DNA of 64,000 bases from Alcanivorax jadensis T9 (GTDB taxonomy: Bacteria; Pseudomonadota; Gammaproteobacteria; Pseudomonadales; Alcanivoracaceae). The translations under genes and the position numbers were made by a program. Of this stretch, positions 36,202-62,372 are shown one piece after another. Location of the stretch: contig NZ_ARXU01000004.1 of assembly GCF_000756655.1 (NCBI RefSeq), positions 1 to 64,000 on the forward strand. The letters run 5' to 3'. Each line of letters opens with the position of its first letter. The first letter of the stretch is position 1. The notes under the pieces were generated by a model. The model did not search any database. It saw only the letters and a program-made list of their open reading frames with translations, and was not told the DNA's origin.

Positions 36202-36526
36202 TGATTGCTCCTGAGATCGCCGACTTATGGGTGAAGTGTCTCTCATGCCGGTTTCTAGCCCCGCCGTAGGAATTCGGGGACGTAACGCACGTAAGGGGTA
36301 TAGAAGAGAATAGCGGCTCTCAAAACGCGTGACCTGGTCTAGACCAGTAGTGTGATTCGAAAGCGCCCAGCCAGATGCGAAAAGTAGCCAGAGAAAGCTG
36401 GCAGCCCTGTGGCCTTGTGATAAGGTTCACAGCAAATATGAATAAACTTCAGGCTGCCAGGGTGGTGGCTGATATCGCTGGTGACAGGGACACTAAACCG
36501 GCACCTGAAAGGATTTGGGGGCAGCA

Positions 36527-40051: not shown

Positions 40052-40065
40052 TATATATAAAAAAC

Positions 40066-40141
40066 CGAATTTTCTATATATAACTATGCGAATATGTATA
40101 GCAAATTGCGAGTTTCTATACCTGATATCGCGATACCTATA
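40066..40141. promoter_or_regulatory. Four phased iterons between hsdR and fic
   Basis: CGA and TATA, 4-6 bp apart, recur with TATA at 40075, 40097, 40117 and 40138, i.e. every 20-22 bp. Three copies read GCGA. All fall on one DNA face upstream of the fic ATG. The Fic C-terminal winged helix is a possible binder. Confidence 0.65.
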
Positions 40142-40168
40142 GGAAACGGCCGAAACGGAGCGCCACCC

Positions 40169-41245: not shown

Positions 41246-41272
41246 CGCCAATGGAATAACGGAAACACCTTC

Positions 41273-45526: not shown

Positions 45527-45622
45527 AGCTCTGTTGGGAATAGCTGGATCTCAGTCATTGATTCCAGCGGTTGAGAATAATTGGTTGATGTGTATTACGG
45601 GATTGCGAATGGAGAATCTCAT

Positions 45623-47869
45623 ATGGATTTGAGCAATGATCAGCAGCTTGCTGAGGTGCTGGCGAAAATTGATCCGATGGAAGTGAATGCAGGATGGGTA
45701 AACAATATTGTCAATTTCCTTGATTATGTCAGGGCGGCGGATCTTGATACCCGAAAGACGCATGAGTTTCAGCGTCGACTTTGGGAAGACAATCCTGTTT
45801 CCGGTATTGGAATGGGGACTGTTGATATCAGCGCTGCACTGGATGATCCTGAGTTCTGCTCATGGATGGCAGAGGAATCTTTCAAACTATTGCCGGAAAG
45901 CCCTGATGCAAGAAAGGCGTTTCTGCAGAACTTTTTCAATCAGATAGTAGAAAAGCTGAAGCAATATTCACGGCGCGTCCCGTGGATGAAAATATTTCGG
46001 GCCTTGGCTGCGCTTTATCCCCGTTACTTTACAACCATCACTTACCGGCGGATGGCCTTTGAGTGTCATCGGGCCTGGTTTGGAAAGCGCAGAAAGAAGC
46101 CCGGCCCGCTAGCCTGTCAATTGGACATGATGGCGAAGCTGGATCAGATTCTTGGCCCTGCCGAAGACTCGACCGAAGCGCTTGCCATCCGTATGACTTT
46201 ACCCTGGATGGTATACGAAGCTCACGTTCAAGTGGAAAGCGCTGAGCCTGAAGTTGAATCCGCTAACAGTCAGGGCGATATTGAGTTGCGACCACTGCCA
46301 GCGTTGCAGCGGCGAAAAGGTCTTAACAGCGTACGCAATGGATTGGCGATGCTGGCCAGTGCGGTCAGTTTTGTAGTGGATGGGGTCACTCGGGAAGAGC
46401 TGATTGATTTTTTGCGGGGAGAGTTTCCGGATTACAGCGATGCTTCTTTGAGAACCGTTGTTAGCCTTCTCAAGAATGAATTCTATGTGGTTCAGGAGGA
46501 GGGAGGCGTCTTTACTCCCACAAGCAGGGGGGAGTCGTATCTTCTGGATAACGATCCGTCTGAACTTGTTCCCCTGTTGATCACCCGAACCCTGGGCGTC
46601 GATCATTTGTTTATTCGCATGAAGAATGGTCCGGTTCAGGTAAGTGAGCTGCTTGATCTCCTTCAGTCTGTAAACCCTGGCTGGAAGTCGCAGTTTGCAC
46701 CCCGCGCATTACTTAAATGGATGCGTGATTTCGAACTGGTAGAAGATTGCCGGGATGGAAACTATGCCTTGACTGAATCCGGCCGATTTTGGGCTAACCA
46801 GATTGATTGGGAGCCAGAGTTTCTGCCGAAAGAGAGCGTTAGTGAAGATGTTCTTCCTGTCGATGATGCCGCAAAACTGGATATGCGGGGTGTCAACCAG
46901 GAAAGGATGATTGCATCGACTATCGATGGTCTCGCATTTTCTCCCCGTTTGGTCAGTCAGCTGCATGTCGGGTTGTGGGCAAATCCGCGCCGTCATTTCG
47001 CGATTCTCGCTGGTTTGTCTGGCTCTGGGAAGACCCTTTTGGCGCAACGCTATGGACAGGCAGTAATGGCTCAGTTTGCTCTGCCAGCTGAGGATCATGT
47101 GCTTGTGATGGCTGTTCAGCCGGGCTGGTATGACCCTTCTCCATTGTTTGGCTATATCAATCCGCTGCAAAGGGACCATTATGTCAGATCACCTCTTCTG
47201 GATTTTTTGCTAAAGGCAGTGAATCGTCCGGATCAGCCCTTTATGGTGATTCTGGATGAGATGAACTTGTCCCATCCGGAGCAATACTTTTCGCCTGTGC
47301 TATCTGCAATGGAGTCTGGTGAGGATCTGTGTTTACACAATGAGGGGGATAGCTTTGATGGTGTGCCGGGCCAGATACCGTTTCCTGCCAATGTGGCGAT
47401 TATTGGCACGGTAAACATGGATGAGACGACTCATGGGATTTCCGACAAGGTACTGGATCGTGCCTTCACGCTGGAGTTTTGGGATATTAGCCTGGACGAC
47501 TATCCCCGCTGGGGCAGTTTTGGGCTGGATGCAGAAGAATTGACGACTGTACAGGCCTGCCTTGCTGGCTTGCTTGATGCATTGGCCCCGGAGCGACTGC
47601 ATTTCGGCTGGCGTACAGTGGAAGATGTGTTGTCCTACCTTTCTCTGGCCCGCCAGGCTTCAGGATTTTCGTTTGTCGATTCTCTGGACGATGTGGTTTA
47701 TGCCAGGGTCCTGCCGAAGTTGCGTGGAACGGAAAGTGAGCGTTTACGGATGGCGATGGATGAGACGATCAAGATCCTGGATCAGCATGGGCTGGAACGC
47801 AGCGTGAATAAAGTGAAGTCTCTAAAGTCAGATCTTGCTGATATTGGCATGATGCGATTCTGGCGATGA
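45623..47869 (+). CDS. McrB-like AAA+ ATPase with winged-helix N-terminal region
   Basis: The ATG at 45623 (MDLSNDQQLAEVL) with GGAGA upstream gives 748 residues. Residues 1-200 are helical and unknown. About 230-420 look like tandem winged helices (DGVTREELIDFLRGEFP, then VQVSELLDLLQS). The C-terminal AAA+ module has Walker A GLSGSGKT (about 464-471), Walker B VILDEMNLSHPEQY (about 540-553; LDEMNLS is typical of McrB) and the block GTVNMDETTHGISDKVLDRA. The last replaces the MNTADRS motif of E. coli McrB, so it may use ATP rather than GTP. The next gene starts 1 bp after its stop and encodes the nuclease partner. It probably assembles as a ring on modified or foreign DNA. Confidence 0.82.
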   Translation: MDLSNDQQLAEVLAKIDPMEVNAGWVNNIVNFLDYVRAADLDTRKTHEFQRRLWEDNPVSGIGMGTVDISAALDDPEFCSWMAEESFKLLPESPDARKAFLQNFFNQIVEKLKQYSRRVPWMKIFRALAALYPRYFTTITYRRMAFECHRAWFGKRRKKPGPLACQLDMMAKLDQILGPAEDSTEALAIRMTLPWMVYEAHVQVESAEPEVESANSQGDIELRPLPALQRRKGLNSVRNGLAMLASAVSFVVDGVTREELIDFLRGEFPDYSDASLRTVVSLLKNEFYVVQEEGGVFTPTSRGESYLLDNDPSELVPLLITRTLGVDHLFIRMKNGPVQVSELLDLLQSVNPGWKSQFAPRALLKWMRDFELVEDCRDGNYALTESGRFWANQIDWEPEFLPKESVSEDVLPVDDAAKLDMRGVNQERMIASTIDGLAFSPRLVSQLHVGLWANPRRHFAILAGLSGSGKTLLAQRYGQAVMAQFALPAEDHVLVMAVQPGWYDPSPLFGYINPLQRDHYVRSPLLDFLLKAVNRPDQPFMVILDEMNLSHPEQYFSPVLSAMESGEDLCLHNEGDSFDGVPGQIPFPANVAIIGTVNMDETTHGISDKVLDRAFTLEFWDISLDDYPRWGSFGLDAEELTTVQACLAGLLDALAPERLHFGWRTVEDVLSYLSLARQASGFSFVDSLDDVVYARVLPKLRGTESERLRMAMDETIKILDQHGLERSVNKVKSLKSDLADIGMMRFWR

Positions 47870-47870
47870 T

Positions 47871-49430
47871 ATGGAACTTCCTGTCTTTCTCGAATCAGAA
47901 GGGGGGCTGACTCAGGTCGGCTGTCTGTCTGTTAGGGCAACACTGCAAGGCTTATATGAGCTTGGCCGTTATCAAATTGCGGTGCCTTTCAGTGGTGCGC
48001 GCTTGTACGTGGATGACGCCTTGCTGGAAATGGATCGCCAGCAAGCATTCTGGATTTGGCAGCCGGGATTTTATTCCGGTGAAGTGACGGTTGAACTTGA
48101 ACTGGCCGACGAAAGCAGATTTTGGCGTTACGTCGCAGATGTGGCGCCTGCAGAAAACAAGTCCGGGCGGGATCAGTTCCATGAATACCTTTCCGCGATA
48201 GTAGAGTACTCCCCATCGCTGGTACTGGGCAGCGAGCCAGGAAAGCATGGCCTGGCCGGTCAGTCAGATAATGCACGGTCTATTTGGTTGCGCTATTTTC
48301 GCCTCAAGAAGTATGTATCAAGTTATCTTGACGGACTAAAACTAATCAGCGAACGGCCTGTAGTTAGGCCTGAAAGCTATCGGGAGCAGGTGCCGTTGTC
48401 GATGGCCCGCAGGGTGGATGTGGCCACCTTGCGGCGGCTGGCGGGTGATCCTGCCTTGCTGGCTGCATTTGCAGGCGTGGGGGACGAGCCGCTCCATGAT
48501 CCCGCCGGAAAATATCTGGATGTGCCATTTCATGAGCCAACCCAGGATAATCCTGCTAATCGTCTAATGGCAGATCAGCTGAATACAGTTAGGCGACATG
48601 TCAGGACCTTGGCTGCGATCTTGTCTGATTGGAAAGACAGGACGTCAGATACTGAAACGGATCTGTTGCCACGGTTGCCGAGAAAGTTGGCATTCCTGCG
48701 TGATATCGATCAGAAGTTATTGCGCTATTCACGCATGGAGCCGTTCTGTCATGCCAGTGAAAACCGGGGCGGTGTTGCCGGACTGAATACCGTCTCTGGT
48801 CATCCGCACTATCTCCGTGCTTATCAGTCTGGCGGCCGAATTATTCGCCGTGGAATCAACTCGCTTTCCCCTGATGAGAAGCACTATCTGGCGCCGACAT
48901 GGGCGATCTATGAAGGCTGGTGTTTTGTCGTTCTTGCGCAGGCTCTGGAGGCGGCGTTTCCTGAATACAGCTGGTCGCTGGATCAGCCTTCAAGCACGGT
49001 TGATCATTGCCTGACAGGTCGAAATGGCGATGCTTCCATTCGGCTTTATTCTCAGCTGGTTTGTGGATCGATGCTAAGTCGCAACCGCTATGGCTATTGC
49101 TCTGTGTCACGCCAGCGAATACCGGACCTGCTTTTAGAAGTTGATGACTTTAGTGGAAAGCGCTTCATGTGCTTGGACAGTAAGTACTCTGTCAGTCGAT
49201 CCAGAATTCTTGATGCCATGGCGTCGGCGCATATCTATCGGGACTCTATAAGAAGGGGTGATGCTACACCTGTTCTATCTATCTTGCTGGTGCCGGACTG
49301 TGAAAGTGGTATTAGTATGCTGACCAATAACAGTTTTTGGGGGGAGCATGGCGTCGGCTGTTTTGCGCTCTGCCGGGATCCTGATGCGGAGTTGCTCCTT
49401 GATCGGCTCAGATCAGCGCTGAGTTTCTAG
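47871..49430 (+). CDS. DUF2357/McrC-like nuclease subunit
   Basis: A 519-residue protein. The N-terminal two thirds resemble DUF2357 (beta-rich start, then helices with RDIDQKLLRYSRMEPF and HYLAPTWAIYEGWCFVVL). The C-terminal PD-(D/E)XK nuclease has RIPDLLLEVDD...MCLDSKY (PD at about 416-417, D-x-K at 436-438) and a following helix ILDAMASAHIYRDSI. In McrBC, McrC binds the AAA+ ring and cuts DNA; the same role is likely. The gene follows the ATPase with a 1-bp gap, so the two are coupled. Confidence 0.8.
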   Translation: MELPVFLESEGGLTQVGCLSVRATLQGLYELGRYQIAVPFSGARLYVDDALLEMDRQQAFWIWQPGFYSGEVTVELELADESRFWRYVADVAPAENKSGRDQFHEYLSAIVEYSPSLVLGSEPGKHGLAGQSDNARSIWLRYFRLKKYVSSYLDGLKLISERPVVRPESYREQVPLSMARRVDVATLRRLAGDPALLAAFAGVGDEPLHDPAGKYLDVPFHEPTQDNPANRLMADQLNTVRRHVRTLAAILSDWKDRTSDTETDLLPRLPRKLAFLRDIDQKLLRYSRMEPFCHASENRGGVAGLNTVSGHPHYLRAYQSGGRIIRRGINSLSPDEKHYLAPTWAIYEGWCFVVLAQALEAAFPEYSWSLDQPSSTVDHCLTGRNGDASIRLYSQLVCGSMLSRNRYGYCSVSRQRIPDLLLEVDDFSGKRFMCLDSKYSVSRSRILDAMASAHIYRDSIRRGDATPVLSILLVPDCESGISMLTNNSFWGEHGVGCFALCRDPDAELLLDRLRSALSF

Positions 49431-49532
49431 TTGTGCGGGAGATATGAATCCAGCGCGAAGCGTTGATCAAAATATGCCACTTTTTACTGATATTAATATG
49501 ATCTTAGGTGTGAATTTACCCGAAGGTGCTTT

Positions 49533-49697
49533 ATGTCTTCTCCTTCTTTGAAAACCAAAAAGGCGTATTTCGCCAGCGTTCGCCGTCGCAATTATGAAGC
49601 GAGTTTGAGACTAGAGGGCTTTGATGTCACCCCTAGGGCGTCCGGATCACGATTTGTTTCTAAAGAAGACGCCATACGTTTTCATCGTCGCCACTAA
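49533..49697 (+). CDS. YhfG-like small protein (Fic antitoxin family)
   Basis: A 54-residue basic protein (MSSPSLKTKKAYFASVRRRN). The block KKAYFASVRRRNYEASLRLEGF fits the YhfG family; in E. coli yhfG precedes fic, and YhfG/FicA-type proteins inhibit Fic toxins. Here the Fic gene is 8 kb away and already has an intrinsic inhibitory motif, so this copy may be an orphan. A GAAGG lies about 7 bp before the ATG. Just upstream (49431-49532) nothing else is seen. Confidence 0.7.
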   Translation: MSSPSLKTKKAYFASVRRRNYEASLRLEGFDVTPRASGSRFVSKEDAIRFHRRH

Positions 49698-49727
49698 TGA
49701 TGTTTTGTTATTGCCAATGGGATAACA

Positions 49728-50666
49728 CTACTTCTGCCCCTTCGCCTTATACGCCGCCTTCCTGGCCTTCTTCTTCGCCTCCTTTTCTTCCTCTTTCAGC
49801 CTCCGTATCTCCGCCACCTTTACATGCTCCTGCTCTGCCATGGCCGGGGTTTCCAGGGTGAGCTGGCCGAGTCTGCCGCCGCGGTATTCGCTGATCAGCA
49901 GGGTGGCGGCGCGGTCGAAGTCCACGTGGCCGCCGCTGCCCAGGCAGCCCCGTTGTTTGCCGATGGTTTCCAGGAAGGGCACGCCTTCTTCGGGCAGGTC
50001 GTCGCGTTTGAAGCGCTCTTTCATTTGTTCAGGGTAGGCCTGCATGAAGTATTCGGCGGCGAACAGGGCCACGTCGTCTTCCTGCATGGCGGTGGCCTTG
50101 ATGGCGCCGGAGAGGGCCAGGCGGTAGCCGCTGTTACGATTTTCGATTTTCGGCCAGAGTATGCCGGGGGAGTCGATGAGGATCAGGCCGCCGCCCAGTT
50201 CGATACGCTGCTGACGCTGGGTCACCGCCGGTTCGTTGCCGGCCCGGGCCACCTGACGGCCGGCCAGGGTGTTGATGAAGGTGGACTTGCCCACGTTGGG
50301 TATGCCGGTAATCAGGGCGGTAATGGTGGTGGCCCGGTCCCGCTTTTTGTGGACCATCTGCTGGCAGATATCCGCCAGTTTGCGCATCGGTTCCGGCTGG
50401 TGGGTGGTGATGGCCAGGGCGCGGACGGTGGGGTCTTTTTGCAGGTGCTCAAGCCACTGCTGGGTGATGGCCGGGTCGGCCAGGTCGCTTTTGCTGAGCA
50501 GTTTCAGACAGGGCTTGCCGGCACGGAAATTCTCGATCACCGGGTTGGAGCTGCTGTAGGGCAGGCGGGCGTCGACGATTTCGATGATCAGATCCACCTT
50601 GGGCAGGATCTCGCGGATCTCGCGGGTGGCCTTGTTCATGTGGCCGGGGAACCAGTTGATGCTCAT
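49728..50666 (-). CDS. rbgA: Ribosome-assembly GTPase RbgA/YlqF
   Basis: A 312-residue circularly permuted GTPase. It starts INWFPGHMNKATREI, typical of YlqF. The order of motifs is permuted: G4 as SKSDL, then G1 GIPNVGKST, then G3 DSPGI. The C-terminus is Lys/Ala-rich (EEEKEAKKKARKAAYKAK), suited to rRNA binding. It helps late 50S assembly. Its stop lies 31 bp from the convergent yhfG-like gene, so this gene marks the start of ordinary chromosome. The start ATG at 50666 is followed directly by the conserved N-terminus. Confidence 0.93.
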   Translation of the reverse strand: MSINWFPGHMNKATREIREILPKVDLIIEIVDARLPYSSSNPVIENFRAGKPCLKLLSKSDLADPAITQQWLEHLQKDPTVRALAITTHQPEPMRKLADICQQMVHKKRDRATTITALITGIPNVGKSTFINTLAGRQVARAGNEPAVTQRQQRIELGGGLILIDSPGILWPKIENRNSGYRLALSGAIKATAMQEDDVALFAAEYFMQAYPEQMKERFKRDDLPEEGVPFLETIGKQRGCLGSGGHVDFDRAATLLISEYRGGRLGQLTLETPAMAEQEHVKVAEIRRLKEEEKEAKKKARKAAYKAKGQK

Positions 50667-50873
50667 AAGCGGGTGTTGCCTGTCTGCATGGAATATCGGC
50701 GCATTATAGCGGACTTGCTCCGGCGGGGCGTGGATCGTAACCGGGTTGCCTTGAGTCAGGAGGGGGCGGACCTTTGACGCTTTGCGCCAGGGGCGTGATA
50801 CGAATCGTCATTAGTGTCTCATTTTGTCTCCCGTACACTGGGTCCACTGAGTCTGATAACAGCGGAGTAGGGT

Positions 50874-52076
50874 ATGGATCTGCGGGTGCCGGAGCAGGAG
50901 AAGGCGTTTCGGGATGAGGTGCGCACCTTTCTGGAGGAGAGCCTGACCCCGGAAATTCGGGAAGCGGGCAGGATGGTGACCTCGGTGTTTGCGCCGGTGA
51001 AGGAAGCCATGGCCTGGCAGCGCATTCTCAACGACAAGGGCTGGGCGGCGCCGCACTGGCCGAAGGAATTCGGCGGCACCGGCTGGAGCGTAACCCAGCG
51101 GGCCATCTTTGCGGAGGAGCTGGTCCGTGCCGAGACGCCGCCGCTGGTGCCCATGGGCCTGCACATGTGCGGCCCCTGCCTGATCGGCTGCGGCACCGAG
51201 GAGCAGCAGCAGGAATACCTGCCGAAGATTCTCAACGGTGAGCACTTCTGGTGCCAGGGCTATTCCGAGCCGGGTTCCGGTTCTGATCTGGCGTCCCTGA
51301 AGACCTTTGCCGAGAAGGATGGCGACGACTACATCCTCAACGGCACCAAGATCTGGACCACCTACGCCCATTACGCCAACAAGATGTTTGCGCTGGTTCG
51401 CACCAATCGCGATGGCAAACCCCAGCAGGGCATTACCTTCCTGCTGCTGGATATGGATCTGCCGGGCATCACCATTGAGCCCATTGTCGGCCTGGATGAA
51501 GTCAGCGAGCAGTGCCAGGTGTTCTTCGACAATGTGCGCGTGCCGCAGAAGAACCGGGTGGGCGAAGAAAACGATGGCTGGACCGTGGCCAAGTACCTGC
51601 TCACTTTCGAGCGTGGTGGCCAGGAATATGCCCCGGGCCTGAACGTGATGCTGGAAAAGATCCGGCTGATGGCCGAGAAGCAGCAGACCGCCTTTGGCCC
51701 GTTGAACCAGGACCCGGTGTGGCAGTACAAGTTTGCGGCCCTGGAAGCGGATGTGCTGGCGTTGGAATTTACCGAGATGCGTATCAAGTCCGCCCTGTCG
51801 GCAGGTAAGGACCCGGGGGCGTTGTCGTCCATGAGCAAGATTCTCGGCACCGAGCTGCTGCAGAAAGTCACCGAGCTGCGTATCGAAACCCTGGGTAGCC
51901 AGAGCGTGATCTGGCAGCCCCAGGCCCTGGTGCCCGGCGAGGAACAGCCGGTGATCGGGCCGGAGTATGCACTCACTGCCATGCCCCATTATCTGAACTC
52001 GCGGGCCTGTTCCATTTATGGCGGCTCCAATGAAGTGCAGCGCGGGATTATCGCCAAGGCGGTGTTGGGGCTGTAA
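50874..52076 (+). CDS. Acyl-CoA dehydrogenase family protein
   Basis: A 400-residue flavoprotein with the usual helical, beta and helical domains. The ACAD signature is visible: WCQGYSEPGSGSDLASLKT, then the C-terminal IYGGSNEVQRGIIAKAVLGL. It oxidises an acyl-CoA to the enoyl-CoA with FAD. A second ACAD gene follows after a palindromic repeat, suggesting an alpha/beta heterodimer as in steroid or branched-chain degradation. Two GTCTC copies lie just before its promoter region (50816-50830), the same pentamer as in the dyad near the TetR gene. Confidence 0.92.
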   Translation: MDLRVPEQEKAFRDEVRTFLEESLTPEIREAGRMVTSVFAPVKEAMAWQRILNDKGWAAPHWPKEFGGTGWSVTQRAIFAEELVRAETPPLVPMGLHMCGPCLIGCGTEEQQQEYLPKILNGEHFWCQGYSEPGSGSDLASLKTFAEKDGDDYILNGTKIWTTYAHYANKMFALVRTNRDGKPQQGITFLLLDMDLPGITIEPIVGLDEVSEQCQVFFDNVRVPQKNRVGEENDGWTVAKYLLTFERGGQEYAPGLNVMLEKIRLMAEKQQTAFGPLNQDPVWQYKFAALEADVLALEFTEMRIKSALSAGKDPGALSSMSKILGTELLQKVTELRIETLGSQSVIWQPQALVPGEEQPVIGPEYALTAMPHYLNSRACSIYGGSNEVQRGIIAKAVLGL

Positions 52077-52084
52077 ACGATAGT

Positions 52085-52151
52085 GTTGGAGCCTTGCTCG
52101 CAAGACGAAGCGCGTAGACGAGGGTATTCGCCTTGCGAGCAAGGCTCCAAC
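52085..52151. repeat. GTTGGAGCC-family inverted repeat, copy 1
   Basis: 20-bp perfect arms, GTTGGAGCCTTGCTCGCAAG (52085-52104) and its complement (52132-52151), lie in the gap between the two ACAD genes. A longer copy is at 59084-59168. It could form a strong RNA hairpin that sets the ratio of the two ACADs. Confidence 0.85.
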
Positions 52152-52193
52152 GGTGGGAAGGGGTGAGGCCCCGCCCGGGAATGGAGAACAACG

Positions 52194-53318
52194 ATGAATT
52201 TTCAGTTGAGTGAAGAACAGCAAATGCTGGCGGACAGCGCCAAGCGGTTTGTGCGCGACAACAGTGATGTGGAAAAACATCGCCAAAATAAAAAGCTGAT
52301 GCCACTGGATGCGGCCACCTGGCAGCAGTTTGCCGATCTGGGCTGGCTGGCGGTGCCGTTCGAGGAAGAGCATGGCGGCCTGGGCATGGGCCAGCTGGAA
52401 ACCATGGTACTGCTGGAAGCCCTGGGCGAGGGCCTGATCATGGCGCCCTATATTGCCACCGTGGTGCTGGGCGGCGGTTTTCTGCGCCAGGCCAGCGCGG
52501 CCCAGCAGGCGGAAACCATTCCCGCCTTGCTGGAAGGCAAGCTGCAGGTGGCCTTTGCCGCGGAAGAGTACGAGCGGGTGTTCACCCTGGAAAACACCGC
52601 CATGGCTGCCGAGGTGCAAGGCACTGACGTCGTGCTGAACGGCATCAAGAGCTGCGTGATGAACGGCGACCAGGCGGACCTGCTGGTGGTGCTGGCGCGC
52701 ACCGGTGGCCAGCCCGGTGATCAGGATGGCCTTAGCCTGTTTCTGGTGGATGCCAATGCGCCAGGTGTGGAGCGGGTGGCCCACCGCACCGTGGACGGTC
52801 GCCAGGGCGCGGAGATTCGCTTCAATCAGGTGAAAGTATCCGAGGCTGCACGTATCGGTGAACTGAACGGCGGCTATGCCATCGCCCGGGATGTGCTTCA
52901 TGAAGGCCTGCTGGCCCTGTCGGCGGAATCCGTGGGCAGCCTGTCTGTGCTGCTCAATGAAACCGTGGAATACAGCAAGACCCGCAACCAGTTCGGCATG
53001 CCCATCGGCAAGTTCCAGGTGCTGCAGTTCCGCATGGCGGACATGTTCATCGCCATGGAACAGACCCGCTCCTTGCTGTTGGCCGCCACCCTGAAAACCG
53101 TGGAAGGCCATGATGATGCTGCCAAGGCCGTGCATGCCATGAAGGCCCAGCTGGGCCGGGCGGGGCGCAAGATTGCCCAGGAAGCGATCCAGATTCACGG
53201 TGGCATGGGCATGACCGATGAGCTGGGCGTGGGCCATTATGTGAAGCGGGTGACCGGTGTGGATGGCCTGTTCGGCAATGCGGATGTGCACCTGATGGCC
53301 ATGGCTCGGTCGGCGTAA
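52194..53318 (+). CDS. Acyl-CoA dehydrogenase family protein, second
   Basis: A 374-residue ACAD, shorter than the first. The N-terminus (MNFQLSEEQQMLADSAKRFVRD) and C-terminus (AIQIHGGMGMTDELGVGHYVKR) are standard. Its middle is less conserved, as often seen in the non-catalytic or partner subunit of heteromeric ACADs. It follows the first gene by 117 bp, with a hairpin repeat between. The substrate cannot be read from sequence. Confidence 0.9.
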   Translation: MNFQLSEEQQMLADSAKRFVRDNSDVEKHRQNKKLMPLDAATWQQFADLGWLAVPFEEEHGGLGMGQLETMVLLEALGEGLIMAPYIATVVLGGGFLRQASAAQQAETIPALLEGKLQVAFAAEEYERVFTLENTAMAAEVQGTDVVLNGIKSCVMNGDQADLLVVLARTGGQPGDQDGLSLFLVDANAPGVERVAHRTVDGRQGAEIRFNQVKVSEAARIGELNGGYAIARDVLHEGLLALSAESVGSLSVLLNETVEYSKTRNQFGMPIGKFQVLQFRMADMFIAMEQTRSLLLAATLKTVEGHDDAAKAVHAMKAQLGRAGRKIAQEAIQIHGGMGMTDELGVGHYVKRVTGVDGLFGNADVHLMAMARSA

Positions 53319-53421: not shown

Positions 53422-54048
53422 ATGTCACGTAACGCGGCCGCGTCGAAAACCCTGCTGAAAAACCTGCAGGTGCCGGAAGGCGACAAGACCTACGAGAAAA
53501 TCCTCGATGCGGGTCTGGCCCTGTTTGTGGAATTCGGCCTGCGCCGCACCACCATGGAAGATGTGGCCGGCAAGGCCGGTATCGGCCGGGCCACGGCCTA
53601 CCGCCGGTTTGCCGACAAGGACCAGTTGATCCAGGTGGTGATCCTGCGTGAGTGTCAGCAACAGCTGGCCAGGATCGAAGCGGAACTGGCACAGATCGAC
53701 AACGGTGTGGAACGGGTGCTGGAATCCTTTGTGCTGGCGGTGACCCGGGCCCACCACCACCCGCTGCTGCAGCGGCTGCTCACCTCCGAGCCGGAAACCA
53801 TCTTGCCGATTCTTACCCAGCGCCTGTGGCAGATGATGGGGTTTTTCCGAATGTACATGGCCAGCATGCTGGACCAGGAGCAGGAGAAGGGCGCCATTCG
53901 CAAGCAATCGTCCGAGGCCCTGGCCGAGCTGATGCTGCGCCTGACCCAGTCCATGGTGCTGTCGCCGGACGGCGTGATGAACCCGGCCAACGAGGCCGGT
54001 GTGCGCCAGTGGGCCAATGACTATCTGCGCCCGCTGCTGACCCCCTGA
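53422..54048 (+). CDS. TetR-family regulator
   Basis: A 208-residue TetR protein. The helix-turn-helix is RTTMEDVAGKAGIGRATAYRRFADKDQLI (about 48-76). The C-terminal ligand domain is helical with no clear cofactor. It lies between the ACAD genes and the MpaB/acyl-CoA ligase pair, so it probably controls one or both, responding to an acyl-CoA or fatty acid. A GAGAC dyad follows at 54127-54154. Confidence 0.9.
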   Translation: MSRNAAASKTLLKNLQVPEGDKTYEKILDAGLALFVEFGLRRTTMEDVAGKAGIGRATAYRRFADKDQLIQVVILRECQQQLARIEAELAQIDNGVERVLESFVLAVTRAHHHPLLQRLLTSEPETILPILTQRLWQMMGFFRMYMASMLDQEQEKGAIRKQSSEALAELMLRLTQSMVLSPDGVMNPANEAGVRQWANDYLRPLLTP

Positions 54049-54180: not shown

Positions 54181-55098
54181 ATGACACAAACGGCCACTGA
54201 CACACCGCGCGATATCCCTCAGCCCCTGGGCCCGGATTCCTACACCTGGCAGGACTTCGGCTCCTGGCGTTTTCATCTGATGCTGCCCCAGGCCTTCGTG
54301 CTGCAGGTGGCGCACCCGATCATTGATGCCGGAGTGGGCGAGCACTCGGTCTACAAGACCGACCCCTGGGGGCGCGCCAAGCGGTCCACCGAACTGCTCT
54401 GGCCTATCGTCTATGCGCGCCCGCAGAAAGCCATCGAAATGGGCATCAAGCTGCGCGACCTGCACCGCACCATCAAAGGCGTGGACAAGCACGGCAACAA
54501 GTACTTCGCCCTGGACCCGGAAGCCTACAGCTGGGTGCACATCACCGGCTACGACGCCACCATCCGCATGCATGAAATGCTGGGCAAGTCGCCCACCGCC
54601 GAACAACGCCGGGCCATGTTTGTGGAGTGGCGGCAGCTGGGCAAGATGATGGGCATTCGCGACCAGGACCTGCCTGCCACGGAAAGCGACTACTGGGCCT
54701 ATTTCCACGGCATCATCCGCGACCGCCTGGAGTGGGGCGAGGTGGTTCAGGACCTGATGAGCCCGGAACATTATCTGGAAATTCCCAAGCCGCCGGGCAG
54801 CCGCATTCCCGATACGGCCTGGGGCCTGATCCTGATTGTTATGGGGCGCTTCATGCGTTTCAACCTGCGCGCCACCTTGCCGCATCAGTTCCGGGAAAAA
54901 TTCCAAATCCCCTGGAGCAAGACGGACCAGCGATTGTTCCGTGCCTGGTGTGGCGTCTACCGCGTGCTGCATGCACTGACACCGAAAAAGCAGCGGCTAA
55001 TTCCCCTGGCTCGCAATGCCTACCGCGACGCCGAGCGTCACCCGGACGCCTATCACCTCAACACTATTCCCGAAGGTGCCCACTATGACATCGGATAA
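54181..55098 (+). CDS. Cytosolic MpaB/DUF2236-family oxygenase-like protein
   Basis: A 305-residue protein from the ATG at 54181 (MTQTATDTPRDIP). No signal or TM is evident. It carries the DUF2236 pattern HPIIDAGVGEHSVYKTDPWGRAKRS and YSWVHITGYDATIRMHEML, where a His serves as haem ligand in MpaB and latex-clearing proteins. The family performs oxygen-dependent cleavage or oxidation of hydrophobic substrates, but most members are unstudied. It overlaps the acyl-CoA ligase gene by 14 bp, so the two should act in one lipid pathway. A second MpaB domain occurs 2.7 kb away in a lipoprotein. Confidence 0.85.
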   Translation: MTQTATDTPRDIPQPLGPDSYTWQDFGSWRFHLMLPQAFVLQVAHPIIDAGVGEHSVYKTDPWGRAKRSTELLWPIVYARPQKAIEMGIKLRDLHRTIKGVDKHGNKYFALDPEAYSWVHITGYDATIRMHEMLGKSPTAEQRRAMFVEWRQLGKMMGIRDQDLPATESDYWAYFHGIIRDRLEWGEVVQDLMSPEHYLEIPKPPGSRIPDTAWGLILIVMGRFMRFNLRATLPHQFREKFQIPWSKTDQRLFRAWCGVYRVLHALTPKKQRLIPLARNAYRDAERHPDAYHLNTIPEGAHYDIG

Positions 55099-56752
55099 CC
55101 GCCCCTGGCTGTCCACCTATGAATCCCTGGGTTACGACTGGCATTCGTTGCCGGCGTTGCCCGAGAAAACCCTGTCCGATTATGTTCGCGACTACGCGGA
55201 ACAGTTTCCCGACCGGGAAGCCCTGGTGTTCCTGGGCAAGGCGATCAGCTACCGGCAACTGGATAATCTGGCCGATCGCATGGCGGCACTATTTGCCGCC
55301 CAGGGTGCCAAGGCCGGCGATGTGCTGGGCCTGCAGATGCCCAACACGCCCCAGTATGTAGTGGCCTTTATCGCGGCGGCCCGGTTAGGCATGGTCAGCA
55401 CCAGTATTTCCCCGCTGATGACGCCGCCGGAAATTACCCATCAGGCCAATGATGCCCAGGTGAAAATCCTGCTCACGCTGATGCCGTTCTGGCAGACCTC
55501 GGTGCCGCCGGTGCTGGGCAAGGTGGACACCCTGAGCACGGTGATCGTCTCCGGCCCCATGGACCTGATGACCGGGCAGGGCGAGGCCCTGGAAGAGACT
55601 CACGAAGGCGTGCAGGTGATCTCCCTGCATGATCACCTGCCAGACACCGCCGAGCCGGTGAACACGCACGTGGATATGGATGCAGTGCTGTACCTGCAGT
55701 ACACCGGCGGCACCACAGGCCTGCCCAAGGGCGCCCGGCTGACCTCGCGCAACCTGTTCATGAACAACCTGCAGGCCAATGTCTTTTACGGTTACCGCAC
55801 CGGCGAGGAAACCGTGGCCTCCGCGTTTCCCCTGTTTCATATCGGTGGCGCGGCAGTGGTGTTCAATGCCCTGCGTACTGCGTCCACCTTTCTGTTGATT
55901 CCTGACCCTCGCGATATCGATCACTTCGTTGCCGAAATGACAGCGCGAACGCCCACGGTACTGGCGGCGGTGCCGGCGCTGTATCAGATGCTGTGTGCCA
56001 ACGAGACCTTCAAGAGCCTGGATTTCAGCGGCCTGCGCATGGCTATTTCCGGGGCGGCGCCCTTTGCCAGGGAAGAAGTGCAACGGCTGGAAAGTGTGAT
56101 CGGCAAGAACAAGTTCTGCGAAGTCTACGGCATGACCGAAACCAGCCCGGTGATCACCCTGAACCCGGCCTCCCACTTCAAGGAAGGCCATGTGGGCATT
56201 CCCCTGCCGGGCACGGAGGTGCGCATCGTGGATGTGGACACTGGCAAAACGATGCCCCTGGGTGAGCCCGGGGAAATCATCGCCGCCGGCCCCCAGGTGA
56301 TGCAGGGCTATCTGGCCATGCCCGAGGCCACGGAAAAAGCCCTGCAGGAGATCGGCGGTAAGCGCTGGATGCACACCGGGGATATCGGCGTCATGGATGA
56401 AGATGGCTTTGTCCGCGTCTGTGATCGCAGCAAGGACATGCTGATTGTCGGTGGCTACAAGGTGTTTTCCGTGGAAGTGGAAGGCAAGGTGCAGAGCCTG
56501 CCTTGGGTGAGCATGTGCGCCGTGGTGGGTCGCCCGGACAGTAACCGCCCCGGCAACGAAATCGTGCAGCTTTATGTTGAACGCAGCGCAGATTGCGACA
56601 AGAGCGAAACCGATCTGAAGGCAGAGCTGGACAGTTTCTGCCGGGAAAACATGTCGCCCTACAAGGTGCCGAAGGAAGTGTTCTTCCTGGATGCCATTCC
56701 GCTCACCTCCGTGGGCAAGATCGACAAGAAAGCGTTGCGGAAAACCGCCTAG
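55085..56752 (+). CDS. AMP-forming acyl-CoA ligase
   Basis: A 555-residue ANL-family enzyme from the ATG at 55085 (MTSDNRPWLSTYESLGYD). The P-loop is YLQYTGGTTGLPKGARLTSRN, the adenylate motif YGMTETSPVITLNP, and the C-terminal hinge region has HTGDIGVMDEDGFVRVCDRSKDMLIVGGYKV. The catalytic Lys is in SVGKIDKKALRK. It activates a fatty or related acid to its CoA thioester, giving substrate for the ACADs upstream. Confidence 0.92.
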   Translation: MTSDNRPWLSTYESLGYDWHSLPALPEKTLSDYVRDYAEQFPDREALVFLGKAISYRQLDNLADRMAALFAAQGAKAGDVLGLQMPNTPQYVVAFIAAARLGMVSTSISPLMTPPEITHQANDAQVKILLTLMPFWQTSVPPVLGKVDTLSTVIVSGPMDLMTGQGEALEETHEGVQVISLHDHLPDTAEPVNTHVDMDAVLYLQYTGGTTGLPKGARLTSRNLFMNNLQANVFYGYRTGEETVASAFPLFHIGGAAVVFNALRTASTFLLIPDPRDIDHFVAEMTARTPTVLAAVPALYQMLCANETFKSLDFSGLRMAISGAAPFAREEVQRLESVIGKNKFCEVYGMTETSPVITLNPASHFKEGHVGIPLPGTEVRIVDVDTGKTMPLGEPGEIIAAGPQVMQGYLAMPEATEKALQEIGGKRWMHTGDIGVMDEDGFVRVCDRSKDMLIVGGYKVFSVEVEGKVQSLPWVSMCAVVGRPDSNRPGNEIVQLYVERSADCDKSETDLKAELDSFCRENMSPYKVPKEVFFLDAIPLTSVGKIDKKALRKTA

Positions 56753-56897: not shown

Positions 56898-58541
56898 ATG
56901 ACAAAAATAACGCTGCAACATAGCAAGGTGATCCTGCTGGGCATGCTGCTGGTTCTGCAGGGATGCTCGGCGTTCAAGGCATCCCACTTCGTGCCGGAAT
57001 CTGCAGAGAACATGCGCGAGTGGGAAGTGGAAGGGCGCTTTGTACTGCGGGCAGACAGCACCGTCAGCAAAAGCCATTTTGCCTTCCGGCAGATCGGCGA
57101 GGAGTACGCCCTGTCCATTCTCATGGAGGAACCGGTGGGCGAACCCAAAGTCATCATTCACGGCAACGTCTATGAGCCGGACAGTGAAACCGTGGATGTG
57201 ATCGGTGGGGCGGAGGCCATGAACGTGGCCGAGCATCTGCAGGCGCATATTCGTGCCGGCAATCTGTCCTACTGGCTGCGGGGTCTGCCGGCCACCGCCG
57301 ATGCGGTGGTGTATCAGGAAGATCTGGACCGGGTGGATCGTATCGAGGAAGCCGACTGGGATATCGACTACAAGGAATATATGGCGGTGCAGAATTACCT
57401 GTTGCCGTCGGAAGTGAAGTTCAAGGGTGAGCAGGGGTCGTTCACCCTGGATATGGTGCGCGCGGAAACCGCTTATCTGACCAGCCCCTGTGGGCAGAAT
57501 GTGTCGGCTAGTGAGCTTGAGTCGCCGCCGGAAAATAACGCCGTACAGGATGCAGTGAGACAACTGGTACCCAGCGACGGTAGTCCGCCGATTCCCCGCT
57601 GGGTGGACGAAGCCGCCTTCTGCCGGCAACTGGTGAAGGTCCACGGCAAGATCCCGGACTCCCGCGTGGGTTTGTACGGGCCGGAATCCATGATGTGGAA
57701 GCTGTCCCGGGCGGGGATGCCGGGAGCCTTCGGTGCCGGCCGGGCGCTGCTGTTGCAACTGGCCCATCCCTGGGTCACTGCCAGCATCGATGAGCATTCG
57801 GTAGTGCGCGATGATCCGCTGGGCCGGGCTCGTCGCACCTTCCAGCATGTGGGCACCATGGTGTTCGGCAGCATGCCCCAGGTGATGACCTCGGCCAATC
57901 AGGTGCGTGATATCCACGAGGAAATCGAAGGCGAGGTGCCGATGGATTCCGGCGCTTTCAAACGGGGCAGTGAATACCGGGCCAACGAAGTGGCGGCCAT
58001 GATCTGGGTCCATGCCACCCTGTGGGAAACCTTGGCCTACATGTACGAAAAAATGGAAGGCGAGCTGACCCTGGCAGAGAAGGATCAGTTCTACGAAGAA
58101 ACCAAACTGTTTGCCATGCTGTTCGGTGTGCCGGAACAGGCCCTGCCGAAAGACTGGAATGCCTTCATGGCATACAACCGCGCCATGTGGGCCAGCCCCC
58201 AGCTCACCGTGGCGGAAAACGGTATTCGCCTGAAGGAAGACCTGTTCGACCCGCGCTCCATCTGGATGATCTTCCCGTTGTGGGTGCAGGAGCAAGTCAC
58301 CGCCGCCAATCTACCGCCGCGTATTCGGGATGAATTTGAAATGAAATACGGCTGGTGGCAGAAGTTCAACAACGCCTGGATCATGGGCGGCGCCAAGGTC
58401 ACCCAGTGGATGTTGCCCAAGAGCCTGGAACGCAACCCGCTGTATCATGAAGCCAATGCACGGCTGGAAGGCGAGCGGGTGGGGGGCTATAACCAGTTCC
58501 TGATCGAGGCGCTGCTGGACAAGGAGCGGTTGGTTAACTGA
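56898..58541 (+). CDS. Lipoprotein: LolB-like domain fused to MpaB/DUF2236 domain
   Basis: A 547-residue protein with a lipoprotein signal (lipobox LQGC at about residues 14-17). Residues about 30-200 look like LolB: WEVEGRFVLRAD, FRQIGEEYALSIL, a segment LSYWLRGLP, then EADWDIDYKEYMAVQNYLLPSEVKF. From about 215 to the end is a DUF2236 domain (HPWVTASIDEHSVVRDDPLGRARRTFQHV, and IWVHATLWETLAYMYEKMEG with the probable haem His). LolB normally receives lipoproteins in the outer membrane with a hydrophobic cavity. The fusion suggests a cavity feeding a hydrophobic substrate to an oxygenase at the outer membrane. An FMN-binding gene overlaps its stop. Confidence 0.83.
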   Translation: MTKITLQHSKVILLGMLLVLQGCSAFKASHFVPESAENMREWEVEGRFVLRADSTVSKSHFAFRQIGEEYALSILMEEPVGEPKVIIHGNVYEPDSETVDVIGGAEAMNVAEHLQAHIRAGNLSYWLRGLPATADAVVYQEDLDRVDRIEEADWDIDYKEYMAVQNYLLPSEVKFKGEQGSFTLDMVRAETAYLTSPCGQNVSASELESPPENNAVQDAVRQLVPSDGSPPIPRWVDEAAFCRQLVKVHGKIPDSRVGLYGPESMMWKLSRAGMPGAFGAGRALLLQLAHPWVTASIDEHSVVRDDPLGRARRTFQHVGTMVFGSMPQVMTSANQVRDIHEEIEGEVPMDSGAFKRGSEYRANEVAAMIWVHATLWETLAYMYEKMEGELTLAEKDQFYEETKLFAMLFGVPEQALPKDWNAFMAYNRAMWASPQLTVAENGIRLKEDLFDPRSIWMIFPLWVQEQVTAANLPPRIRDEFEMKYGWWQKFNNAWIMGGAKVTQWMLPKSLERNPLYHEANARLEGERVGGYNQFLIEALLDKERLVN

Positions 58542-59074
58542 TGCCAAGAGTCATCGCACTGCTACTGATGCTCGGGCTGGCGGCAACGCTGCCGGCCTAT
58601 GAGGTGCAGATCCGTCACCTCAGTCAGCCGGATTTTCTGCAGCAGGTGTTTGCTGACCAGGAGCCGCAAGCGGGCTTGCTGCCCTTGCGTGGCGAACTGC
58701 GCGAGCGGGTGACAACGGTGTTGGGCCACCCCTATCGGGGCCTGCGTCTGCGCTACTGGCATACCGATACAACCAGCGCCTGGATCATCGACGAAAAAAG
58801 CAAGGACATGCCCATGACCGTGGGTGTAGCCGTGGGGCCAGAGGGGATTGTGGATCTGGAGATCCTGGTCTACCGGGAACCCCGTGGTGGCGAAGTGCAC
58901 CAGGCGTTTTTCCGTCGCCAGTATCGCGGTATGACTCTTGGTGAAAACGATGCCCTGTCCGGCCAGGTGGACGGCATCACCGGCGCCACCCTGTCCGTGG
59001 ACGCTACCAGCCGGGTAGCCGCCATGGCATTGGTGTTGCATCAGGCGGTGATGGAAGGCGCCTCTTCACCATAA
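58541..59074 (+). CDS. Secreted FMN-binding domain protein
   Basis: A 177-residue protein with a signal peptide (MPRVIALLLMLGLAATLPA). The FMN_bind domain ends in DGITGATLSVDATSRV; the Thr of the GAT motif is the usual site for phosphoester-linked FMN added by ApbE. Its ATG overlaps the stop of the LolB-MpaB gene (TGATG). It probably carries electrons in the periplasm, perhaps to the MpaB-like haem partner; that partnership is inference from coupling. A large palindrome follows. Confidence 0.87.
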   Translation: MPRVIALLLMLGLAATLPAYEVQIRHLSQPDFLQQVFADQEPQAGLLPLRGELRERVTTVLGHPYRGLRLRYWHTDTTSAWIIDEKSKDMPMTVGVAVGPEGIVDLEILVYREPRGGEVHQAFFRRQYRGMTLGENDALSGQVDGITGATLSVDATSRVAAMALVLHQAVMEGASSP

Positions 59075-59242: not shown

Positions 59243-61852
59243 ATGGTTCGATTCTTTCCGCCTGTTGTTCGAGGCCTTGGTTATGCGTTGCTGCTCGTGC
59301 TGTTTCTGGCACTGGTGGCGGCGGGCTGGCTGTATAGCCAGGGCCTGCGCGTGAGCAAACCGGGCTGGGACAACGGCCTGACCCTGGCCCATTGGCGTTG
59401 GCAGCCGGACGATTGCGCCCCCGTGGCGGGTGAGAACCTGGTGCTACGCGATCTCTTTCCCCTCACCGTCCACACGCGGACGGTCACTCTCACCACCTGT
59501 GACAGCGGTGCGGACGATGACAGTGTTGTGATGCCGGACTCCTTGCCTTGGACGCCCCCCTTTGTGCTTTCCATCGATACCTTGTTGTTGCCCGCGATGG
59601 GGGAGGTAACGCCACCACAGTTGCAGGTAGCGGCCCGTCAGCAACAGCAGCACTGGTTGGTAAAAGTGGAGAGCACAGGAAGCCATCTGAAGGCGGAATA
59701 TGAGCGTGATGACGGGCAGTGGTCGTTGCACGGCAACGGTGCGTTGAATGAATGGCTCACGGACTGGCAGGGCACATGGCAGCTTGAAGGCGATGGTGTA
59801 TGGCAGGGACAACCCGCTGGCACCCTGAGCGCAACCCTGCAGGATGCCGGTCTGCAATCTCAGCCGCAAAAAGCCGACCTGGCGATGAAGGCCCGCTTTG
59901 CCGGTGAGCAGTGGCAGGCTGACATGAGCCTCACCGAGCCGTTGTCGCTCAATGAGCAATGGCTGCTGGCGATTCCGGAACCGTTATCCCTGCAAGGGGA
60001 GGGTGTCGCCCTGTCTCAAGCCCGTGGGCAGTTTCAGTTTCAAGGGCCACAAGGGCAGATTCATGTTGCCGCCCGCAGCGATGACAGTTCCGTGGAGCAG
60101 GGTGCCGGACAGGTCACGTTGACGGGGCCGCAGCTGGATGGGCAGCTAGATTTTCAGTGGCAGGATCGAATGCTGACCCTGTCGCCGGCAAGCCTGGCGT
60201 TACCGGAAAAGCTTTCCGCCCGTTGGGAGCAACCTCTGAGCGTGCCCATGACGCTGGAGGGCGGCACGGAGTTGCCGGTGGTGCTGGGTTATCAAGACCT
60301 GCGCCTGCAAGCCAGCCCCAGCCGGCTCCAGTGGCAGGGCAAACACTGGCAGTGGCAGGGAGCGCTGGCGTTGCAGGGCCGTTGGCAAGGGTTCCGGCTG
60401 GATGGCCACTGGCAGGGCCAGGCCGCCAGCGATGGCTTGAAGGGCAAGCCGATTACCCTCAACGCTCGAAATGGCGACGATCGTCTGGCCTTCCGCTTGC
60501 CGCTGGAATCCCTGCATCGGGCACCCTACGGCGGCAAAGCCACGGTGAAAGGCCAGTACGCCGACTATCCGCTCGATGGCAGCGTGTCGTTCCGCCAGGC
60601 CGATGACGGTTGGCAGGGCACGCTGTCGGCCACGTCATCCATTCCCGACTATGACCGGGGCGGTGATGTTTCCCTGCAGGTGCCATGGCACCTGAAAGAC
60701 AGTGCCGTGGTGCTGGCGGATGGCAGTCGATTGTCGGTAAGCGAAGGGCTGGTGGAACAGGTGCTGCTGCGCCCGCTCACCGTGACGGCCAGCGGCCCGG
60801 TAACGGTGAGCAGTGCCGGGGCCCATGGTCATGTGCAACTGCGCAGTGGCGGCCTGCTGGCGGCCCGCTGGCGGTTGCCGGTGGTGGCAGGCAGCGCCCG
60901 ACTGATCGGCAAAAAAGTCACGGCACGGCTGACCATTGCCGATTGGCAAAGCGAGCTGACGGCGGATGCCTCTCTGGCAGGTGACGTGCCCCGAGGCAGT
61001 TTTCAGGTCCACAGCCAGTTGATCCCGGCTATGGGCCAGGGCCTGGCAATGACGCCACAAGAAGGCACGCTCGCCGGCAAGGGTAGCTGGCAATGGCGTG
61101 ACACTCTGTCTGCCCAGGGGACAATCCGCCTGGCGGATACGCGAATGGACTGGGGTAGCGTCACGGCCCGGGGGATTCAGGGAGCCATGGAAGGGCACTA
61201 TCGTGATGGTGCGGTGTCTCTAAAGAGTGTGGGGCCGGTGACAGCGGATACCCTGGATATCGGTACCCCGATCACCGACCTGTCCCTGCAGGTGGAAAGC
61301 GACCTGACCCGTTGGCAGTTCAGCGATATCCAAGCCGATCTGCTCGGCGGTTCCCTGCGTTCGCCGGCGCTGGACTGGCCCTCACCCCGGCCCCAGCCGG
61401 TGGTGATTACTCGCATTGATCTGGAGCAGGTGGCTGCCCTGCAGAATCCGCCGGCGGTGTTTCTGGATGGACGTGTTGGGGGCTATGTGCCTTTGCAACT
61501 GGGTACGGATTTTCTGGTCGTAGAAGGGGCGAGGCTGGCTAACGAGGAAACCCTGTCTCTGCGTATTCCACCGTCATCCAGTGTGCAATCCATGGCCGGC
61601 TCCAATCAGGCGGTGAAACTGGCACTGGACAGTCTCAGTGTGCTGACCATTCCGGATTTTCAGGCCCGCATGAATATGGACCGGGAAGGCTGGCTGGATG
61701 CCGCGGTGACGATCAAGGGTCGTAATCCGCAGAGAAATAATCTGCCGGTGGTGTTTAACTACACCCATCGGGAAAACATGCTGGTGCTGATGCGCAGCCT
61801 GCGTATTGGCGATGATATAACCGAGAAACTGCGCACGGAGAGAAGCCAATGA
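59243..61852 (+). CDS. ydbH: YdbH-family intermembrane protein
   Basis: An 869-residue protein with one N-terminal TM (about 10-32) and a long beta-rich periplasmic part of many W/Q/G-containing strands. This is the pattern of AsmA-like bridges. The C-terminal domain (ALDSLSVLTIPDFQARMNMDREG and NNLPVVFNYTHRENMLVLMRSL) matches YdbH. With TamB and YhdP, YdbH moves phospholipids to the outer membrane in E. coli. The gene overlaps ynbE by 4 bp, as in E. coli where YnbE completes the bridge. Confidence 0.9.
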   Translation: MVRFFPPVVRGLGYALLLVLFLALVAAGWLYSQGLRVSKPGWDNGLTLAHWRWQPDDCAPVAGENLVLRDLFPLTVHTRTVTLTTCDSGADDDSVVMPDSLPWTPPFVLSIDTLLLPAMGEVTPPQLQVAARQQQQHWLVKVESTGSHLKAEYERDDGQWSLHGNGALNEWLTDWQGTWQLEGDGVWQGQPAGTLSATLQDAGLQSQPQKADLAMKARFAGEQWQADMSLTEPLSLNEQWLLAIPEPLSLQGEGVALSQARGQFQFQGPQGQIHVAARSDDSSVEQGAGQVTLTGPQLDGQLDFQWQDRMLTLSPASLALPEKLSARWEQPLSVPMTLEGGTELPVVLGYQDLRLQASPSRLQWQGKHWQWQGALALQGRWQGFRLDGHWQGQAASDGLKGKPITLNARNGDDRLAFRLPLESLHRAPYGGKATVKGQYADYPLDGSVSFRQADDGWQGTLSATSSIPDYDRGGDVSLQVPWHLKDSAVVLADGSRLSVSEGLVEQVLLRPLTVTASGPVTVSSAGAHGHVQLRSGGLLAARWRLPVVAGSARLIGKKVTARLTIADWQSELTADASLAGDVPRGSFQVHSQLIPAMGQGLAMTPQEGTLAGKGSWQWRDTLSAQGTIRLADTRMDWGSVTARGIQGAMEGHYRDGAVSLKSVGPVTADTLDIGTPITDLSLQVESDLTRWQFSDIQADLLGGSLRSPALDWPSPRPQPVVITRIDLEQVAALQNPPAVFLDGRVGGYVPLQLGTDFLVVEGARLANEETLSLRIPPSSSVQSMAGSNQAVKLALDSLSVLTIPDFQARMNMDREGWLDAAVTIKGRNPQRNNLPVVFNYTHRENMLVLMRSLRIGDDITEKLRTERSQ

Positions 61853-62037
61853 AAAACCTCGCGCCGGGTTTGTTGCTGGCGGCGGCCATGCTGCCCGCCT
61901 GCACACCGACGGTGGCACTCAAGGCACCGGAAGAGCCCATCACCATCAACCTGAACGTGAAGATCGATCATGAAATCCGCCTCAAGGTGGAAAAGGATAT
62001 CGATCAGTTGTTCAGTGAAGACAGCGACCTGTTTTAG
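61849..62037 (+). CDS. ynbE: YnbE-family lipoprotein
   Basis: A 62-residue lipoprotein: signal MKNLAPGLLLAAAMLPAC, lipid Cys near residue 18. The short mature part has TINLNVKIDHEIRLKVEKDID, the strand that docks onto YdbH. It lies in the order ydbH-ynbE-ydbL found in many gammaproteobacteria. Confidence 0.9.
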   Translation: MKNLAPGLLLAAAMLPACTPTVALKAPEEPITINLNVKIDHEIRLKVEKDIDQLFSEDSDLF

Positions 62038-62048
62038 GAGTAGGGACC

Positions 62049-62372
62049 ATGAAGATTGTAAAGACCATGATTGCCACCCTGACCCTGCTGTTGAGCATGG
62101 CGGTGTTTGCGCTGGATCTGGATGCGGCGAAAAGCCAGGGCATGGTGGGTGAACAACCGGACGGTTATCTGGGCGTGGTCAAGGCGACCCCGGCTGCTGT
62201 GGAACTGGTGGCGGATATCAACCAGAAACGCCGTGATGCCTATGAGCGTATCGCCAAGCAGAATGGCATCACCCTGGATCAGGTGGCGCGCCTGGCCGGC
62301 CAGAAGGCCATCGACAAGACCGATGCCGGTGATTATGTGCGAACCCCGGACGGCCAGTGGGTTACCAAGTAG
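62049..62372 (+). CDS. ydbL: YdbL-family (DUF1318) periplasmic protein
   Basis: A 107-residue protein with a signal peptide (cleavage near VFA, about residue 21). DUF1318 pattern: AKSQGMVGEQPDGYLGVV, NQKRRDAYERIAKQNG and LAGQKAIDKTDAGDYVR. In E. coli YdbL is thought to chaperone YdbH-YnbE assembly. It is 11 bp after ynbE and ends the operon. Confidence 0.9.
   Translation: MKIVKTMIATLTLLLSMAVFALDLDAAKSQGMVGEQPDGYLGVVKATPAAVELVADINQKRRDAYERIAKQNGITLDQVARLAGQKAIDKTDAGDYVRTPDGQWVTK

Follow-up and report, generated by a model that had tools for sequence, protein, structure and literature searches.

A predicted outer-membrane lipoprotein of Alcanivorax that joins a LolB-like domain to an MpaB/Lcp-family oxygenase domain, and its candidate flavin electron partner

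Introduction

What might a LolB-like domain do on the same polypeptide as a predicted haem oxygenase, and where would such an enzyme obtain its electrons? Both questions are raised by one gene of Alcanivorax jadensis T9 that lies in the 64,000-nucleotide window analysed here (positions 1 to 64,000 of contig NZ_ARXU01000004.1; coordinates refer to this window unless another locus is named). An earlier note on this DNA described the gene product as a lipoprotein in which a LolB-like domain and a DUF2236 domain form one frame, and suggested that it oxidises hydrophobic compounds at the cell surface, possibly with electrons from a translationally coupled FMN-binding protein. The enzyme family itself is already known; what is new here is the architecture and its genomic context. 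A literature search for a paper holding both LolB and DUF2236 found none, and no electron partner of the rubber- and alkene-cleaving haem oxygenases of the MpaB/Lcp family has, to our knowledge, been established.

Results

A conserved fusion in one reading frame

The gene (56898-58541, + strand) runs from an ATG start as a single uninterrupted ORF of 547 aa. A Pfam scan places both domains in this one frame, as had been claimed, and both lie well above cut-off: LolB (PF03550) at residues 41-184 (E=3e-13; 50.4 bits, cut-off 23.7) and MPAB_Lcp_cat (PF09995) at residues 268-489 (E=3e-47; 162 bits, cut-off 23). The earlier note had asked for other proteins with this architecture, and we find it in 18 orthologous rows from two families of one order, at 49-98% identity. 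The fusion is present in all five Alcanivorax genomes sampled and, at full length, in 8 of 15 genomes of the second family. No fusion beyond Alcanivorax and this one other family was found in our order, class and phylum samples, the class and phylum samples holding relatives of the catalytic domain only. One locus of the set (L044, 5941-12026) has two fusion copies close together. We give practically no weight to the explanation that two genes were merged by a sequencing or assembly error, and found no evidence in its favour; the identical open frame recurs in genus mates, in the second family and in independent assemblies, and its conservation across 18 rows rules such an artefact out. A phmmer search with the full protein also matched prion chains; these matches were rejected as chance, arising from a Gly/Trp-rich stretch.

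The protein begins with a lipoprotein signal peptide (residues 1-22) followed by the lipidation residue Cys23 (56898-56966, + strand). The LQGC lipobox noted earlier is thus upheld, with Ser24 at the +2 position. Gly22 and Cys23 are invariant across the 18 aligned fusion rows, and the +2 residue is Ser in these rows except for Ala in one of the 18. The lack of an Asp at +2 is consistent with outer-membrane sorting, and we predict with high confidence that the fusion is an outer-membrane lipoprotein.

The LolB-like domain

The first domain (residues 31-193; 56988-57476, + strand; PF03550) has the computed fold of LolB. This part of the full-length model is confident (pLDDT mostly 75-91), and its VIA Z scores to LolB structures are 15.6-17.4, the best matches being 8orn (Z 17.4, 156 aligned, 3.1 A), 8cm1 (Z 16.8) and 1iwm (Z 16.1). 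The last of these is the structure against which the earlier note had proposed to check the domain, and the modelled residues 31-193 match it; LolA structures score clearly lower (Z about 10). Using a profile built from the fusion LolB alignment, we retrieved E. coli LolB, whose hook QPL68GS aligns with E-P-V80-G-E of the fusion (57129-57143, + strand). A polar or charged residue at L68 is reported to impair E. coli LolB (PMC10368991, a paper on Xanthomonas LolB, which also gives the E. coli hook), and a hydrophobic residue is retained at this place in the fusions (V80, or Ile in one row). Several core positions of the domain are invariant in the 18 rows.

The fusion therefore shares fold, lipobox and hook loop with LolB (1IWM, 8cm1, 8orn), but it differs in having an enzyme attached, in carrying Val or Ile at the hook where LolB has Leu, in coexisting with a true LolB and in its score of 36.5 bits against the LolB equivalog TIGR00548 (NCBI), which is below the cut-off of 59.6. 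In a tree, the fusion LolB domains are monophyletic with good support, and a long branch separates them from canonical LolB. A separate canonical LolB is present in every fusion genome checked, which rules out the fusion as the only LolB of its genome. From the sub-equivalog score, the long-branch clade and the coexisting canonical protein, we conclude that the domain is LolB-like in fold and hook and is not the LolB of the cell. Could it be an additional, specialised LolB, a lipoprotein insertase whose cargo is modified or sensed by the oxygenase domain? The kept fold, hook and hydrophobic hook residue would suit such a role; set against them are the canonical LolB that all fusion genomes checked have kept and the missed equivalog cut-off, and we regard a second LolB as very improbable.

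The catalytic domain and its predicted haem site

The second domain (residues 232-547; 57591-58538, + strand) belongs to the MpaB/Lcp (DUF2236) globin-type family by PF09995 and by VIA Z. A first full-length model was poor over this region (pLDDT about 60), and we used instead a model of the domain from a deeper, 45-row alignment (pLDDT 94). In fold searches this model matched t-anethole oxygenase (8s1j) at Z 19.5 over 258 aligned positions and the latex clearing protein Lcp (5o1l) at Z 17.7, with ordinary globins at Z 6.8 or lower. When solved DUF2236 structures were sought by sequence, the one match was weak, to Lcp (E=0.002).

The residues of the haem site can be followed from Lcp into the fusion. 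The motif R310-A-R-R313-T314 (57825-57839, + strand) aligns with the R164..K167-T168 haem-site motif of Lcp (PMC5522427), and His340 (57915-57917, + strand), the predicted proximal haem ligand, corresponds to His198 of LcpK30 and His195 of Lcp1VH2 (PMC5522427, PMC6311187). A profile alignment to Lcp1VH2, encoded on plasmid p174, likewise places R310, T314 and H340 on the Arg, the Thr and the known haem His of that protein (PMC6311187). The Arg, Thr and His are invariant in the 18 fusion rows; in the 45-row superfamily alignment R310 is found in 45/45 rows and H340 in 44/45, and position 314 is Thr or Ser. The ligand His whose loss would have told against the earlier assignment is thus kept, and the alignment of these three residues to Lcp predicts haem binding. 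On the basis of fold and site residues the fusion is most likely a haem globin oxygenase, in agreement with the earlier note; a b-type haem and cleavage of C=C bonds are predicted. At the position of the distal Lys ligand of LcpK30 (K167) the fusion has Arg313, and in this it departs from the Lcp rubber oxygenases proper; this Lys is moderately conserved, in 59% of Lcps (PMC5522427).

Two known systems are instructive for comparison. The fusion resembles the bacterial MpaB-family b-haem oxygenases that cleave C=C bonds (t-anethole oxygenase 8s1j; Nro1 of Gordonia, PMC12724181) in its haem-site residues and in a catalytic fold that agrees over almost the full length of the domain, but these proteins stand alone, whereas the fusion has a LolB domain at its N-terminus and is predicted to be an outer-membrane lipoprotein, and identity is about 12%. 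With Lcp (5o1l, 5o1m; Lcp1VH2) it shares the globin-type domain, the Arg/Thr/His haem motif, export, and a genomic association with ApbE or redox genes; Lcp, in contrast, is a free secreted Gram-positive protein without a LolB domain, and its K167 is Arg in the fusion. Lastly, Cys198 (57489-57491, + strand) and Cys242 (57621-57623) are both invariant in the fusions and the aligned stand-alone relatives have no Cys at position 242, which suggests a disulfide between the two domains.

A linked FMN-binding protein

The stop codon of the fusion overlaps (TGATG) the start of a conserved neighbour that encodes an FMN_bind protein of 177 aa (58541-59074, + strand) with a hydrophobic, signal-like stretch at its N-terminus. 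The coupling to an FMN-binding protein that the earlier note described is upheld. The protein contains the sequence D-G-I-T-G-A-T-L-S (58970-58996, + strand), which matches the [S/T]GA[S/T]-like flavinylation motif of ApbE targets as defined in PMC8238504, and the core DGI[TS]GATL is retained in the FMN_bind orthologues aligned. Almost every orthologous locus has an FMN_bind gene directly downstream of the fusion, the exceptions being L047 and the second of the two copies in L044, beside which no FMN_bind match was found (the gene adjoins the first copy only). A search of 26 genomes found the FMN protein in 12/12 fusion genomes, a count that does not take in the full-length fusion of G658; four second-family genomes without the fusion are also without the FMN protein.

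A PepSY_TM gene directly follows FMN_bind in five genomes (G283, G255, G067, G215 and G152), and PepSY proteins form a class that has been proposed to carry electrons across the membrane for flavinylated proteins (PMC8238504). In the A. jadensis genome and several other fusion genomes PepSY_TM is not adjacent to FMN_bind. The A. jadensis genome encodes three ApbE proteins, and its homologous PepSY_TM gene stands alone elsewhere, beside a glutaredoxin-like gene (contig C10, 60583-61263). In these five genomes the combination of PepSY_TM and an FMN_bind protein with a flavinylation motif is like that of the PepSY-class flavinylated extracytosolic electron-transfer systems, with the difference that the partner here is a predicted haem oxygenase lipoprotein; a term search of the main text of PMC8238504 turned up neither an oxygenase nor a lipoprotein. 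Given linkage in two families, the flavinylation motif and the five PepSY_TM genes, a redox link between the fusion and the FMN protein is probable. The supply of electrons by the FMN protein that the earlier note considered is supported to this extent, the flow of electrons itself being what we infer from it. The proposal of oxidation at the cell surface fared less well, since a flavoprotein partner in the periplasm argues that the enzyme would sit on the periplasmic face of the outer membrane.

A simpler explanation has to be weighed at this point. The LolB part might be a mere anchor or spacer at the outer membrane, with an oxygenase that attacks exogenous hydrophobics by itself, in the manner of Lcp, and an FMN protein that serves another partner or only rescues oxidised haem. 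No need for a stoichiometric electron donor or reductase is known for Lcp-type dioxygenases, and the part of the flavoprotein may thus be limited to restoring haem that has become oxidised. In several genomes an FMN_bind-PepSY_TM pair also lies downstream of the gene for an outer-membrane porin, of the O/P type or similar, without an oxygenase (L128-L133); this indicates that the pair is a portable module, and the divergence of the LolB domain on its long branch would also fit a spacer. However, FMN_bind co-occurs with the fusion across genomes and through changes of neighbourhood, and the LolB fold and hook have been retained instead of eroding into a tether. We consider the anchor explanation unlikely, and prefer an oxygenase that is served both by its LolB-like domain and by the FMN protein.

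A gene neighbourhood suggestive of catabolism

Upstream of the fusion, on the same strand, are conserved genes for a TetR-family regulator (53422-54048, + strand; Pfam scan), a second, stand-alone MpaB/DUF2236 protein in which no signal peptide is seen (54184-55098, + strand; PF09995, E=4e-57) and an acyl-CoA synthetase-like AMP-binding enzyme (55085-56752, + strand; PF00501). Together with the fusion and FMN_bind they form a set that recurs in both families, although the order varies and some loci are incomplete. Two acyl-CoA dehydrogenase-like genes, assigned to this family by eye from their translations, precede the set (50874-53318, + strand; 50874-52076 and 52194-53318), and such genes also adjoin the orthologous loci L040, L043 and L048. 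A FadL/TodX porin is encoded in the fusion locus of G152. Farther upstream, the window holds type I restriction-modification genes (HsdR-like and HsdM) with a Fic-domain protein between them (36515-42946); four ORFs of 317-762 aa without a Pfam match at E 0.001, which may not all be genes, lie between these and the acyl-CoA dehydrogenase-like genes (44387-50774).

Directly downstream is a YdbH-YnbE-YdbL intermembrane phospholipid transport set (59243-62372; YnbE named by eye). This raises the possibility that the enzyme acts on the envelope of its own cell, on unsaturated acyl chains, quinones or other prenyl lipids, and serves to remodel or protect the outer membrane and not to degrade food. 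The transport set follows the operon in the A. jadensis lineage, and the acyl chains of lipids are known ligands of the LolB fold (PMC10368991). The linkage to YdbH is, however, confined to the closest relatives, and for this reason we set it aside as functional evidence. Moreover, the conserved neighbours, a TetR regulator, a second oxygenase and an acyl-CoA synthetase, are typical of catabolism, and FadL/TodX near the fusion in G152 also speaks against action on the envelope. We judge this alternative improbable, and favour catabolism of hydrophobic compounds.

Putatively exported relatives and lcp loci

The nearest relatives without a LolB domain include proteins with signal-like N-termini, one of which is followed by an FMN_bind gene (L127). 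The ancestor may accordingly have been an exported oxygenase that already had a flavoprotein partner, with the LolB domain a later addition. One genome has three stand-alone MpaB/DUF2236 genes in tandem (L134, 4539-7684).

Loci of rubber oxygenases offer a parallel. On plasmid p174 of Gordonia polyisoprenivorans VH2 (L138, 7826-12495), lcp1 is followed by genes for ApbE, a ferric-reductase-like membrane protein, a NuoF-like protein and a ferredoxin, which are a possible electron supply for the rubber oxygenase. A survey reports that in several Nocardia an ApbE gene and a redox gene lie downstream of lcp, followed by an mce transport cluster, and calls the function of this ApbE gene unclear (PMC9070631). 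Additionally, the trans-anethole oxygenase of P. putida, which may not be a homologue of 8s1j, was reported to require flavin and NAD(P)H in vitro (PMC3774712). From the lcp-ApbE loci and this cofactor requirement we take it as a reasonable hypothesis that exported MpaB/Lcp enzymes receive their electrons by way of a flavin.

Discussion

Based on these data, we propose a reading of the whole locus to which we assign a probability of about 0.5. The fusion would be a b-haem, globin-fold oxygenase of the MpaB/Lcp type that cleaves C=C bonds and is held to the outer membrane by its lipoprotein anchor, facing the periplasm. Its LolB-like domain, with a hydrophobic cavity and a hook that dips into the membrane, would take unsaturated hydrophobic molecules from the outer membrane and pass them to the oxygenase, or keep them near it. 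The haem iron would be reduced by the neighbouring periplasmic protein with its covalent FMN, itself reduced by an inner-membrane PepSY_TM protein, and the products, aldehydes or acids, would be imported and would pass to the adjacent acyl-CoA synthetase for activation and then to acyl-CoA dehydrogenases for degradation. Among these steps, the hand-over of substrate from the LolB cavity to the oxygenase is put forward tentatively, at somewhat less than even odds. More speculative again is a general rule, that extracytoplasmic DUF2236 haem oxygenases are driven by flavinylated transmembrane relays; the fusion would then be a tethered, inner-membrane-powered, trans-envelope version whose lipid-transfer domain extracts its substrate from the outer membrane.

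The conserved operon joins a predicted outer-membrane oxygenase to an adjacent flavoprotein, in several genomes with the inner-membrane PepSY protein beside them, and this makes the question of the reductant directly testable. If our reading is correct, the LolB fold would have found a new use as the substrate-handling module of an enzyme. The Alcanivorax hosts are marine oil-degrading bacteria that are important for the breakdown of oil, and the fusion and its flavin carrier genes suggest that they may possess a membrane-bound machine for oxidising water-insoluble compounds.
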